From Muribaculaceae bacterium Isolate-104 (HZI) (GTDB taxonomy: Bacteria; Bacteroidota; Bacteroidia; Bacteroidales; Muribaculaceae), in the NCBI GenBank assembly GCA_003762715.1, contig RIBJ01000064.1, positions 1 through 42,927 of the forward strand: DNA of 42,927 nt. Direction: 5' to 3'. This document shows, piece after piece, positions 4,029-42,927 of the stretch. Under the pieces are notes generated by a model. It was not told where the DNA came from, did no database searches, and was given only the letters and a program-made list of their open reading frames with translations. Every line of letters begins with the position of its first letter. The stretch's first letter is position 1. A program made the translations under genes and the position numbers.

Positions 4029-6185
4029 ATGAAGGTTTATCAGACTAACGAAATCAAAAACATTGCGCTTCTTGGCAGCAAGGGCTCCGGAAAAACCACA
4101 CTTGCAGAGGCTATGCTCTACGAGTGTGGAGTTATAAAACGCAGAGGCAGCGTTGAGGCAAAGAATACTGTCAGCGATTACTTTCCGGTTGAAAAGGAGT
4201 ATGGTTATTCAGTTTTCTCAACAATATTCTATGCTGAGTTCCTGGGCAAGAAGCTGAATGTGATAGATTGCCCGGGAGCGGATGACTTTGTGGGCAATGC
4301 CATAACCGCCCTGAATGTTACCGATACCGGTGTAATACTTATCGACTCACAGTACGGGGTCGAAGTCGGCACTCAGAATATTTTCAGAACTTGTGCTTCG
4401 TTGAAAAAGCCGGTGATATTCGCTCTAAACCAGCTTGATGGCGAAAAGGCTGATTATGAGAATGTGATAGAGCAGATGCGCGAGATTTTCGGTAACAAAG
4501 TAATAACAATCCAGTATCCTCTGAATGCCGGTCCCGGGTTCAATGCCATGATTGACGTGCTTCTGATGAAAAAGTATTCATGGGGACCGGATGGTGGAGT
4601 GCCTGTAATAGAAGATATACCGGAAGAGGAAAAAGAGAAGGCTCTCGCACTTCATCAGCAGTTGGTAGAGGCTGCCGCCGAGAATGACGAGACTCTTATG
4701 GAAAAATTCTTCGACCAGGGTCATCTGACAGAGGATGAAATGCGTGAAGGTATAAGAAAAGGTCTTGTAGACAGGTCGGTATTCCCGGTGTTCTGCGTAA
4801 GCGCGCTCAAGGACATGGGTGTGCGTCGCATGATGGAATTTTTGGGAAATGTTGTGCCGTTTGTTGAAGACATGCCGGCTCCGGTCAATACAGAAGGAGA
4901 GGAGGTTAAGCCGGACAGCAACGGACCTTTGAGCCTGTATATGTTCAAGACAACAGTAGAACCGCATATAGGCGAGGTGAGCTATTTTAAAGTAATGAGC
5001 GGAACTCTCACTCCGGGCGTGGATCTGGATAACATAAACCGAGGGACAAAAGAGAGAATCGCTCAGATATATTGTGTGTGCGGTCAGATTAAGAACGCCG
5101 TGGACAAACTGTGTGCAGGCGATATAGGCGCCACAGTCAAGCTCAAGGACGCGCGCACCGGAAATACTCTCGATGCCAAAGGCTGTGAATATGCTTTTGA
5201 TTTTATAAAGTTCCCGGCACCCAAGTACCAGCGGGCAATACGTCCTGTTACGGAAAGTGATGCGGAAAAGCTGAGTGCCATATTGACAAGAATGCACGAA
5301 GAGGATCCCACATGGGAAGTAGAATTGTCCAAAGAGTTGAAGCAGACCATTCTTTCAGGTCAGGGCGAATTTCATTTGCGCACACTGAAATGGAGGGTGG
5401 AGAACAATGACAAACTTCCTATAATATTTGAGGAACCCAAAATTCCGTACCGCGAAACCATTACCAAAGCTTCGCGAGCCGACTACCGGCATAAAAAGCA
5501 GAGCGGCGGCGCCGGTCAGTTTGGCGAGGTGCATTTGATAGTGGAGCCATATACAGAAGGAATGCCGGCACCTGATACATACCGTTTCGGCAATCAAGAG
5601 TTCAAAATGAATGTAAGGGACACCCAGGAAATTCCTCTTGAATGGGGCGGCAAGATTGTCGTGTGCAACTGTATTGTGGGCGGAGCCATTGATGCGCGTT
5701 TTATCCCGGCAATCATCAAGGGTCTCATGGACCGTATGGAGCAGGGTCCACTGACCGGGTCATACGCCCGTGATGTTAGAGTGTGCATATACGACGGAAA
5801 GATGCATCCGGTGGATTCAAATGAAATATCATTCCGCCTTGCCGGCAGAAACGCATTCAGTGAGGCATTCCGCAATGCAGGTCCTAAAATTCTCGAGCCT
5901 GTCTACGATGTAGAGGTTATGGTGCCAGGCGATGTTATGGGAGATGTAATGAGCGACCTTCAGGGGCGCAGAGCTATAATTATGGGTATGTCAAGCGAAA
6001 ACGGTTTCGAGAAAATCCTTGCCAAAGTGCCTCTCAAAGAGATGTCAAGCTACTCTACGGCATTAAGCTCCATTACCGGCGGCAGGTCGTCGTTTACAAT
6101 GAAATTTGCATCTTACGAACTTGTACCCGGCGAGGTTCAGGACAAGCTGCTTAAGGAGTATGCGGCGACACAGAACGAAGAATAA
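4029..6185 (+). CDS. fusA2: EF-G paralogue (EF-G2 type) lacking the GTPase histidine
   Basis: This translation factor has the EF-G domain order: G domain, domain II and C-terminal domains III-V, 718 residues. It is not the canonical EF-G. The P-loop is GSKGSGKTT (residues 16-24) in place of AHIDAGKTT. Switch I lacks the RGIT motif (YGYSVFST near 58-65). The G3 motif is DCPGADDF, with Ala84 where GTPase-active EF-G has its catalytic His. G4 is NQLD (134-137) in place of NKxD. These changes match Bacteroides EF-G2 (BT2167 in B. thetaiotaomicron), reported to support elongation without GTP hydrolysis during carbon starvation and gut colonisation. The gene stands alone, divergent from lon, with a dyad in the promoter region and a terminator behind it. 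Another possibility is a ribosomal-protection protein, but the full-length EF-G architecture and starvation-type promoter favour EF-G2. Confidence 0.9.
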   Translation: MKVYQTNEIKNIALLGSKGSGKTTLAEAMLYECGVIKRRGSVEAKNTVSDYFPVEKEYGYSVFSTIFYAEFLGKKLNVIDCPGADDFVGNAITALNVTDTGVILIDSQYGVEVGTQNIFRTCASLKKPVIFALNQLDGEKADYENVIEQMREIFGNKVITIQYPLNAGPGFNAMIDVLLMKKYSWGPDGGVPVIEDIPEEEKEKALALHQQLVEAAAENDETLMEKFFDQGHLTEDEMREGIRKGLVDRSVFPVFCVSALKDMGVRRMMEFLGNVVPFVEDMPAPVNTEGEEVKPDSNGPLSLYMFKTTVEPHIGEVSYFKVMSGTLTPGVDLDNINRGTKERIAQIYCVCGQIKNAVDKLCAGDIGATVKLKDARTGNTLDAKGCEYAFDFIKFPAPKYQRAIRPVTESDAEKLSAILTRMHEEDPTWEVELSKELKQTILSGQGEFHLRTLKWRVENNDKLPIIFEEPKIPYRETITKASRADYRHKKQSGGAGQFGEVHLIVEPYTEGMPAPDTYRFGNQEFKMNVRDTQEIPLEWGGKIVVCNCIVGGAIDARFIPAIIKGLMDRMEQGPLTGSYARDVRVCIYDGKMHPVDSNEISFRLAGRNAFSEAFRNAGPKILEPVYDVEVMVPGDVMGDVMSDLQGRRAIIMGMSSENGFEKILAKVPLKEMSSYSTALSSITGGRSSFTMKFASYELVPGEVQDKLLKEYAATQNEE

Positions 6186-27160: not shown

Positions 27161-27550
27161 ATAAAGGGTAGCCGGGCGTTTCGTCGCTCACCGATGAACA
27201 AGCGGTGTGAGGAAAGTCCGGGCAACACAGAGCGCCACACTTCTTAACGGGAAGCTGTCGGAAACGGCAGAGTAATGTGACAGAAAACAACCGCCGCTAC
27301 ATGCGGTAAGGGTGAAAAGGCGGGGTAAGAGCCCACCGGGTTCCATGGTGACATGGAATGCCGCACATCTTTGGGTTGCAAGACCATGTATACCGGCATT
27401 TAAGGGTTGCTCGCCCATTGTCGGGGGGTAGGTCGCTACAGCTGTGCGGCAACGTACAGCGCAGATAAATGACGAAACGCAGCGTCAAGCCGCTTTATGC
27501 GGAACTGTCGGCTGCGACATAACCCGGCTTATAGCCCGGCTCCCTTTTTT
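27161..27550 (+). ncRNA. rnpB: RNase P RNA, bacterial type A
   Basis: This is the catalytic RNA that trims tRNA 5' ends together with RnpA protein. The conserved segment GAGGAAAGTCCGGGC (near 27210-27224) and the 3' core ACAGCGCAGATAAATGACG (near 27457-27475) are present. The ends pair as P1: AGCCGGGC at 27170-27177 with GCCCGGCT at 27534-27541, extended by AAAGGG (27163-27168) with CCCTTT (27542-27547). The T run that starts at 27545 then acts as a terminator. Length is about 385 bases, normal for type A. It has its own promoter and faces the convergent ugd gene, which ends at 27559. Confidence 0.97.
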
Positions 27551-41527: not shown

Positions 41528-42136
41528 TTAATTGGCAGCAGCGCCTTGGCGCGACATTATAAAGTGTTCTTTGCCCACCTCATACTTCATGCGCCCGTCT
41601 TTTATTTTTATGTCATCAAAATGCTTTAAATCAAGATATTTCACAGTCACAATCCGGGCAATCTGTTTCTTGACCCGTTCAACCACATCTGGTTTGAGTG
41701 TAGAAGCCACATCCTCGTCCTCGCCGTTGAGCAAGGATGTTTCGAGAACTACAGCCTGAGGGTCGATGCTTATCTCTATTGTGGTAGGGTCGATAGTCAA
41801 TGAAATCTCATCATCATCTGTTGCAACCCATGAGCCTTGTGCCGTAACCTTGGCTGCAGCGGTAAGAGATATAGGCTGTATTATAGAGCTGTCGCCCGGC
41901 AGAGCCTCGTTAAGAGAAAGCATGGTTGATACAACAACAACTCCCTCTGTAGGTGCCGTTTTTGTGAAGACGTATGAATCTACCCCGGTAATAATACCGT
42001 CAGTCTGGTTTGAAAGAGTCTTTGGAGCTCCGCTCCAGGTACCCTCTATGGCTCCGGCTAACTTTGACGGCGATTCGCAACCGCAAAACCCCAAAGTTAC
42101 AGCCGCAAATGCCAATAAGTTGAATATGATACGCAT
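41528..42136 (-). CDS. Lipoprotein of unknown function, possibly lipocalin-like
   Basis: The 202-residue product has a lipoprotein signal with lipobox LGFCGC (lipidated Cys about residue 20). The mature start AIEGTWSG resembles the opening strand of lipocalin-like lipoproteins found in Bacteroidales, followed by alternating strands with paired Ser/Thr residues. I cannot assign a family with certainty. It ends about 60 bases before the TPR gene start on the same strand and has no obvious promoter box. The gene right of it is the structured RNA, on the other strand. Confidence 0.72.
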   Translation of the reverse strand: MRIIFNLLAFAAVTLGFCGCESPSKLAGAIEGTWSGAPKTLSNQTDGIITGVDSYVFTKTAPTEGVVVVSTMLSLNEALPGDSSIIQPISLTAAAKVTAQGSWVATDDDEISLTIDPTTIEISIDPQAVVLETSLLNGEDEDVASTLKPDVVERVKKQIARIVTVKYLDLKHFDDIKIKDGRMKYEVGKEHFIMSRQGAAAN

Positions 42137-42230
42137 AATGCCTGTAATTAAGTTGATTCTTTAAAAGAAAACATTTAGTCTACGGCAAAAGTTCTTTTGA
42201 CCGACTGAAAAATGTGCTTTTGAATGGATA

Positions 42231-42262
42231 TTTGTATAGGAACTCAAAAAGTAGTAATTTTG
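42231..42262 (+). promoter_or_regulatory. Promoter of the structured RNA
   Basis: TTTG at 42231-42234 and TAATTTTG at 42255-42262 are separated by 20 bases, a full match to the Bacteroidota consensus. The transcript would begin near 42269. Confidence 0.7.
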
Positions 42263-42266
42263 CATC

Positions 42267-42545
42267 GGATGAAGTGTTGTAGGCTGTAGAGACAGCCCTC
42301 CATCCAATGATCTGACGGTAAATCCGTCAAAAGGTGTTATTGAAATTTTATCTTTACTTTCAAACTTGGCCGTTTGATATTCCAACAGAGATAAAATAGC
42401 AATGGCACCTGCATCAGTGGCTATAACCGCTTAAATCAAGCGATTTGATAGCAACGGGTGTGGGGGCTGTTGTCTTATCGTTGGAAAGGTAGGCCAAGAC
42501 CTGAAAGTAGATAAGGCATAACAACTAAACCTCACACCTTTGTTA
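42267..42545 (+). ncRNA. Unassigned structured RNA of five hairpin domains
   Basis: The 460 bases between the lipoprotein and the MBOAT fragment hold no credible gene but dense complementarity. H1: GGCTG/CAGCC (42282-42297), possibly closed by GGATG/CATCC (42267-42305). H2: TGACGG/CCGTCA (42313-42329). H3: a four-helix rod at 42333-42409, GGTG/CACC, ATTG/CAAT, ATTTTATCT/AGATAAAAT and TCAAAC/GTTTGA. H4: CGCTT/AAGCG (42428-42442). H5: a rod at 42457-42538, GGTGTGGGG/CCTCACACC (one G-U), GTTGT/ACAAC, CTTATC/GATAAG and AGGT/ACCT. A full-consensus promoter precedes it. I considered tmRNA, SRP RNA and cobalamin riboswitch and see none of their signatures. 6S RNA of Bacteroidales is possible but the multi-hairpin layout is not the usual single rod. 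It may be a free RNA or the leader of the next gene. Confidence 0.6.
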
Positions 42546-42596
42546 TATCCACCCGGCTCTTTTGAGGTTTAAAGCGCCATAAATCTATCATGTTCA

Positions 42597-42812
42597 ATGC
42601 TGTTTAATTCCTTGGCCTTTGCATTGTATCTTCCCTTGGTGTTTATTCTTTATTGGAGTGTATTTAGAAAATTAAGGTGGCAAAATATGCTGGTTATTGC
42701 AGCCAGTTATATATTTTACGGGTGGTGGGACTGGAGGTTCCTGGTTTTGATTGCAGTTACCACGGGGTGTAGCTTTTTAAGTGGAATATATATAGGCAAG
42801 TTTAGTACATGA
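42597..42812 (+). pseudogene. N-terminal fragment of an MBOAT family O-acyltransferase
   Basis: The first 71 codons match the start of AlgI-like MBOAT proteins (MLFNSLAFALYLP, then YIFYGWWDWRFLVLI), which acetylate extracellular polysaccharides in the membrane. The family is normally about 470 residues; here translation stops after IGKFST, just past the second or third membrane helix, and loses the catalytic His. The family pattern ends abruptly near 42803. An insertion that continues beyond the window is the simplest explanation; a deletion is also possible. The remainder of the gene may lie outside the window. Confidence 0.7.
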
Positions 42813-42856
42813 CAAAAATTGAAATCATGCTGTTAAACAGTTAAATTTTAGGTGAT

Positions 42857-42864
42857 TATATTTG
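42857..42864 (+). promoter_or_regulatory. -7 box near the right edge
   Basis: TATATTTG is a perfect -7 match 54 bases before an ATG at 42918. No clear -33 box. It would drive a gene that continues past the window, possibly within an element that broke the MBOAT gene. Confidence 0.4.
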
Positions 42865-42917
42865 CAAAAGTCCCTGAAAATTAGTAATTTAAAGGAAAAG
42901 TTTAGCCGCTTTTTCAC

Positions 42918-42927
42918 ATGAAAATTA
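42918..42927 (+). other. Possible start of a gene cut by the window edge
   Basis: ATGAAAATTA at the last ten bases could begin a coding region (Met-Lys-Ile). It follows a -7 box by 54 bases. Three codons are too few to identify it; a transposase is only a guess from the broken gene next door. Confidence 0.2.

Follow-up and report, generated by a model that had tools for sequence, protein, structure and literature searches.

What kind of RNA is encoded near the end of a contig from Muribaculaceae bacterium Isolate-104 (HZI), behind a promoter and ahead of a truncated gene? The window, by which is meant the whole stretch of 42,927 nucleotides (nt) of contig RIBJ01000064.1 that was analysed, carries at 42231-42560 what the original prediction took to be a highly structured RNA of unknown class; a divergent 6S RNA, a new free-standing RNA and a long regulatory leader for a broken acyltransferase gene were the identities offered. 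The stretch belongs, as a single copy, to a large family of mRNA leader RNAs, apparently a class undescribed so far, and from sequence comparison the leader probably turns the gene behind it on or off. Its family, structure and leader position are well supported. As to mechanism, we lean with modest confidence towards a cis-acting, two-state strand-exchange attenuator, attenuation being the step that we infer.

The claim that the RNA is strongly structured has been confirmed. Folding of 42269-42560 gives -96 kcal/mol, compared with -70.4 ± 5.0 kcal/mol for 200 shuffled sequences (z -5.15, no shuffle being as good), and the core at 42330-42547 folded alone gives z -5.53; the sequence is also conserved in relatives, with compensatory changes. 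Among the frames of at least 60 amino acids (aa) listed across the core there is a single one, which starts with TTG on the minus strand (42161-42385). All elements of the proposed TTTG-N20-TAATTTTG promoter are present, in an arrangement that we take to be the Bacteroidota-type consensus. The features of the RNA are as follows.

42231-42262, plus strand: promoter, read in the sequence, with TTTG at 42231-42234, a spacer of 20 and TAATTTTG at 42255-42262
42282-42297, plus strand: 5' hairpin GGCTGT-AGAG-ACAGCC, from sequence and alignment; many relatives have a similar hairpin
42332-42354, plus strand: strand 1, partner of strand 2, or of strand 4 at the base
42355-42387, plus strand: tip L1, complementary to L2, with inner CTTGGCC at 42365-42371
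42388-42417, plus strand: strand 2, partner of strand 1 or strand 3
42418-42453, plus strand: apical segment, variable in the alignments and nearly gone in short forms
42454-42479, plus strand: strand 3, partner of strand 2 or strand 4
42480-42509, plus strand: tip L2, with inner GGCCAAG at 42492-42498 complementary to L1
42510-42538, plus strand: strand 4, partner of strand 3, with 42525-42534 also complementary to strand 5
42539-42547, plus strand: U-rich run, TTTGTTATA; most relatives have a stronger one
42562-42571, plus strand: strand 5, TTGAGGTTTA, complementary to strand 4 and lying between the U-rich run and the start codon

These strands can be combined in two ways. Pairing of strand 1 with 2 and of strand 3 with 4 (written 1:2 and 3:4) gives two rods, which form the minimum-energy fold of the window copy. 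Alternatively, strand 3 has strand 2 as its partner and the tips of the two rods join in a duplex of about 25 pairs (2:3 and L1:L2), giving one long rod.

Relatives of the RNA were gathered in steps. At E 0.01, a blastn search with the window stretch matched 27 of 101 genomes, its own included, the weakest matches being short. From 27 full-length copies an alignment (A1) and a search model (R1) were made, and a wider model (R2) was built from 55 copies. The structure of R2 holds L1:L2 and 2:3 without 1:2 or 3:4, and therefore 1:2 and 3:4 are the only pairings free of search bias in the sets found with it. With rough E-values, and counting the own genome, R1 found the RNA in 149 of 297 genomes from the window's family (26 of 30 genera), in 39 of 295 from the order and in 5 of 198 from the class. 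Those five comprise the own genome, a genome with seven matches and three whose matches are weak. R2 matched 24 of 296 genomes sampled across the phylum, among them three from outside the class, whose matches are weaker. Under laxer filters it matched all 34 genomes of the genus; the number of matches per genome there ranges from 1 to 31 and is 10 in the own genome. The 214 matches were reduced to 164 distinct copies (163 in the count of promoters and U runs) and to 158 once six weak, partial or antisense ones had been dropped. Kept cores are 157-275 nt long, the short forms being without most of the apical segment.

Both folds carry the marks of selection. RNAalifold on A1 picked the nested long rod, while a blind search for co-varying helices in the 55-copy alignment returned helices from both folds. 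In that alignment 89.1% of cells are paired for the long rod, with double changes in 32 of 38 pairs and a covariation score of 0.561, compared with 0.232 when shuffled and at most 0.122 when slid. For the two rods, 88.1% of cells are paired, double changes occur in 36 of 40 pairs, and the score is 0.416 compared with 0.262 shuffled and at most 0.161 slid. No shuffle out of 500 matched the score of either fold, and 24 columns are paired in both folds with differing partners. The apical stem 211-214:225-228 also co-varies in three of its four pairs. The two rods, proposed originally, do fold as drawn, although they are one of two conserved folds and the less stable one among relatives; as the sole structure they were rejected, since the alignment fold and the energies favour the long rod.

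The second half of the element is nearly the reverse complement of the first, and for this reason the model weakly matches the other strand. This, and the many copies per genome, might suggest a palindrome that acts as DNA, either a recombination site or a spreading element. Such a reading is the least probable of those considered here: G-U cells exceed A-C cells (181 to 59 and 272 to 50), which also identifies the plus strand as the RNA strand, promoter, RNA and gene keep a fixed order, and a pairing of strand 4 with strand 5, described below, falls outside the palindrome.

A second test asked whether a strand pairs better with the partner of its own copy than with the partners of other copies. 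It was applied to 62 representatives, to 19 of 27 copies from outside the order and to 41 of a further set of 42. In these three sets, respectively, z was -13.2, -6.9 and -10.6 for 1:2; -15.5, -6.9 and -12.3 for 3:4; -13.7, -5.4 and -10.1 for 2:3; and -37.1, -13.6 and -25.6 for L1:L2. The preference persists among 18 and 13 paralogues of single genomes, and the control pairings 2:4, L1:2 and L2:1 were no better than permuted ones. A hairpin stands between the U run and the start codon, and part of strand 4 is in addition complementary to its loop; this pairing, 4:5, gave z -7.7 in 61 copies (a control further downstream, -0.3), -6.6 in a further 41, and -4.6 and -3.5 within genomes. By sequence comparison, then, 1:2, 2:3, 3:4, L1:L2 and 4:5 have all been shown to co-vary, though 1:2 and 3:4 exclude 2:3. 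Changes in the paired arms are compensated, the opposite of what the original prediction had named as its refutation, and it appears from this pattern that evolution has kept the RNA able to adopt both exclusive folds.

In nearly all copies tested the tip duplex is private. L1 finds its best partner in the L2 that belongs to the same copy in 24 of 24 cases from five genomes (7 of the own genome's 10 included), in 18 of 18 from genome G019, where 24 were matched, and in 12 of 13 from genome G011, where 31 were matched. Kissing of the tips through their inner 6-7 pairs, with both rods intact, is possible, in keeping with the covariation of the apical stem noted above; the full duplex was treated as the other state because it crosses the rod stems.

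The position of the RNA is equally regular. In 144 of 161 copies the 160 nt upstream contain the motif TANNTTTG, compared with 17 of 159 and 13 of 154 control stretches, and it also stands upstream of 39 of the 42 matches in the further set. Near the core end, 155 of 163 copies have at least six T in eight positions, as against 15 of 161 and 16 of 156 controls. The first same-strand ATG frame begins 45-60 nt past the core in 78 of 153 copies, and the further set has 21 such cases among 41; in the window copy a same-strand start codon follows at 49 nt, as in most relatives. Under a stricter rule (at least 100 aa, start within 250 nt) such a frame follows the leader in 109 of 148 cases and is missing in 39. 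Of the identities first offered, a regulatory leader of the broken acyltransferase gene is therefore the best-fitting one. A trans-acting small RNA that stands free and ends at the U run would likewise have its own promoter and a U-rich end. It is nevertheless very unlikely, if slightly less so than the DNA palindrome, as start codons cluster behind the element, 4:5 extends past the U run and each copy has private tips; as the RNA's main role, free-standing action is left without support.

The genes behind the leader are diverse and enriched in exported proteins, with BspA-type leucine-rich repeats or lipoprotein-like. By a crude hydrophobicity rule, 70 of 109 of them start with a signal-peptide-like segment, compared with 180 of 645 other open reading frames. 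A Pfam scan of 132 downstream proteins found BspA-type leucine-rich repeats in 23, TerB in 5 and CsgG in 3, the remainder being scattered, and a search for a pathway common to these genes found none. A metabolite riboswitch of a new class, with its binding site in the conserved apical stems or internal loops, is for this reason improbable: the genes point to no single ligand, and up to 31 matches occur in one genome. What speaks for it is the conservation, around the tips, of bases that are unpaired or used twice; in addition, strand exchange is the commonest riboswitch mechanism according to PMC10907184.

The preferred reading, attenuation by strand exchange, would proceed as follows. During transcription rod 1 would form first. 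As L2 emerges it could grip L1 and shift strand 2 from strand 1 to strand 3; strand 4 would thereby lose its partner, and the gene would be read. Were rod 1 held, whether by a protein, a ligand, polymerase speed or chance, 3:4 would pair, rod 2 would then directly precede the U-rich run, and transcription would end before the gene. In the finished mRNA, 4:5 would lock the read-through form. This reading rests on the fixed order of promoter, RNA, U-rich run and start codon, on the covariation of both folds, on the best pairing of strands from the same copy, and on folds of growing prefixes, in which 1:2 is present in 99% at the end of strand 2; once L2 is out, 2:3 is present in all and L1:L2 in 99%. 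The leader does lie between promoter and gene, and 2:3 and 3:4 are exclusive, with 3:4 placed before the U-rich run, as expected of an attenuator.

Several observations weigh against it. In unconstrained folding at equilibrium the long rod was chosen in 155 of 158 copies, the window copy being an exception, and in forced folding it was the better state in all 158, by a mean of 13.5 kcal/mol, a figure that understates the two-rod state because its energy is a sum of three separately folded pieces. In the window copy forced folding separates the two states by 1.4 kcal/mol, and the unconstrained minimum is the two rods. The U run of this copy is weak, and the gene behind it is cut. In the growing-prefix series, which consists of equilibrium folds and not kinetics, 3:4 had formed in about 1% of full cores; termination would therefore need kinetics or a factor. 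A scan for consensus terminators, limited to loops of 3-8, did not call rod 2. The control pairing 1:3, null in two sets, gave z -2.9 (8 of 5000) outside the order. Strand 3 also pairs better than by chance with the upstream 70 nt (z -4.2, 61 copies), a signal that the model does not explain. The pairing 1:4 gave z -7.2 in the 62 copies and -4.3 in the 41, and is weak within single genomes (-2.9 and -1.7) and unsupported in the 19 copies from outside the order (+0.6); it may therefore follow from the other three pairings. Finally, 4:5 sits past the U run and so cannot act on termination there; it suits the finished mRNA rather than termination.

A rival possibility, less probable than attenuation, is that the two-state leader acts post-transcriptionally. 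Here 4:5 and the hairpin before the start codon would control translation or mRNA decay, for example by having RNase III cut the long rod, and the main role of the U-rich run would be to pair with an A-rich run at the base of that rod. It would account for the covariation of 4:5 between the U run and the start codon, for the long rod as ground state and for the covariation of 1:4 within the order. It sits less well with the weakness of 1:4 within genomes and its absence outside the order, with the U run, which persists outside the order in most copies, and with the keeping of 3:4 directly before that run.

In trp-type amino-acid attenuators the pairings follow a 1:2, 2:3, 3:4 logic. The leader described here would, we suggest, work in the manner of these and of the strand-exchange transcriptional riboswitches, treated as a class in PMC10907184: it shares with them its leader position and the exclusive pairings, with 3:4 before a U-rich run and 2:3 preventing 3:4. 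Unlike them, it co-varies in both states over the whole element, has a private tip duplex of about 25 pairs and a fifth strand behind the U run, and lacks a common pathway and apparently also a general leader peptide. An ATG frame of at least eight codons is present in 51 of 157 leaders (a count made without a control), and no conserved frame was seen. More tentatively, the private tip duplex may serve as the address or timer of each leader. The family would then be a phylum-wide class of RNA switch with up to about 30 leaders per genome, in which the speed of strand exchange relative to RNA polymerase sets the on/off ratio of each surface gene, possibly stochastically, as phase variation at the level of RNA. 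A leader matched in all 34 genomes examined of one gut genus and in sampled Bacteroidota, with no matching Rfam family in the scans made, would amount to a so far hidden level of regulation for the accessory and surface proteins of gut bacteria. With two exclusive folds that both co-vary, dozens of paralogues and private tips, it also offers a natural data set for co-transcriptional strand exchange.

In the scans made, the RNA is outside every Rfam family. The covariance models of Rfam 15 (4227) gave no gathering-level match over the RNA itself; the sole such match in the window is a class A RNase P RNA at 27168-27547 on the plus strand (234 bits). At E up to 5, the region 42100-42927 yielded just two matches (E 1.3 and 3), both on the opposite strand. 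No model lay over the RNA in 58 related loci, a subset of the members, either (19 scanned at E up to 1, and 19 and 20 at gathering). A search of the window for tRNA and transfer-messenger RNA (tmRNA) found none, and both identities were rejected. It had been claimed that landmarks of tmRNA, signal recognition particle RNA and the cobalamin riboswitch are lacking, and this is borne out by the absence of an Rfam match to any of them.

6S RNA acts by binding RNA polymerase, which uses it as a template for short product RNAs. 6S RNAs, including 6S-Flavo (RF01685), resemble the leader in having a long rod of similar size; the leader differs in matching no Rfam model even at E up to 5, in preceding the start codons of unrelated genes and in its many copies per genome. 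The suggestion of a divergent 6S RNA is hence abandoned, and 6S and the other Rfam families were rejected for want of a match in the window or the scanned loci. The Bacteroidetes candidates HMP2_4205, HMP2_1065 and HMP2_1032 are, according to PMC8040213, palindromic and 80-132 base pairs long, some being called Rho-independent terminators and one lying near TonB; the comparison is by description only, and identity with the leader is possible. DonS-type RNAs of Bacteroides share a link to susC homologues, but according to PMC7366714 they are cis-antisense and 78-128 nt long, whereas the leader is sense and upstream. DUF805 RNA (RF03081), which is cis-regulatory and was met in a genome from the same order, differs in its 68 positions and as a separate match; one copy lies between leader core and gene, directly behind a family member (L131:1792-1857, plus strand). 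The open-licence literature held no description of this RNA that we could find, though an earlier listing under another name is possible; Bacteroides-2 and GUCCY-hairpin, motifs from 2010, have no Rfam number in the table consulted.

Phage or plasmid origin of the RNA has little support. Neither blastn against phages with the window stretch and locus L117, nor three exact patterns in viral contigs, which miss divergent copies, nor a plasmid search with L125 gave a match; a plasmid search with L256 gave one, in Rhizosphaericola mali (82% over 74% of the query).

Some gene arrangements recur among the relatives. In one family outside the order, seven loci (L256, L260-L263, L266 and L270) encode a protein with TonB-receptor plug and CarbopepD_reg_2 domains 222-576 nt behind the RNA, and at L267 and L279 of the same family other genes follow at 44 nt. 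Many of L256, L260-L264, L266, L269 and L270 have a small opposite-strand gene upstream, several of these looking helix-turn-helix-like by eye. In two genomes a gene family that looks similar by eye stands behind the leader (L274:254-426, L285:757-925 and L286:3905-4073), and the pair seems to be kept together. A tandem pair of leaders precedes one gene on the minus strand (L229:3997-4194 and 4366-4558), and a cobalamin riboswitch (L309:3-212, minus strand, 89.6 bits) lies near a leader copy.

Behind the window copy itself two features remain.

42597-42812, plus strand: 5' part of an MBOAT-type acyltransferase gene, a frame of 71 aa, the gene behind the leader
42801-42927, no strand assigned: repeat terminating both gene and contig, probably the end of an insertion sequence

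Residues 1-68 of the frame are 66% identical to the start of a 485-aa protein at L214, which matches Pfam MBOAT at 2.5e-29 and itself stands behind another copy of the leader; a Pfam scan of the 71-aa piece matched no model. The likeness ends at residue 68, where the repeat begins (42801), and the genome carries this repeat at eight further places, of which at least four are contig ends. Apparently an insertion sequence cuts the MBOAT gene, and the weak U run and altered energy balance of the window copy may represent decay.
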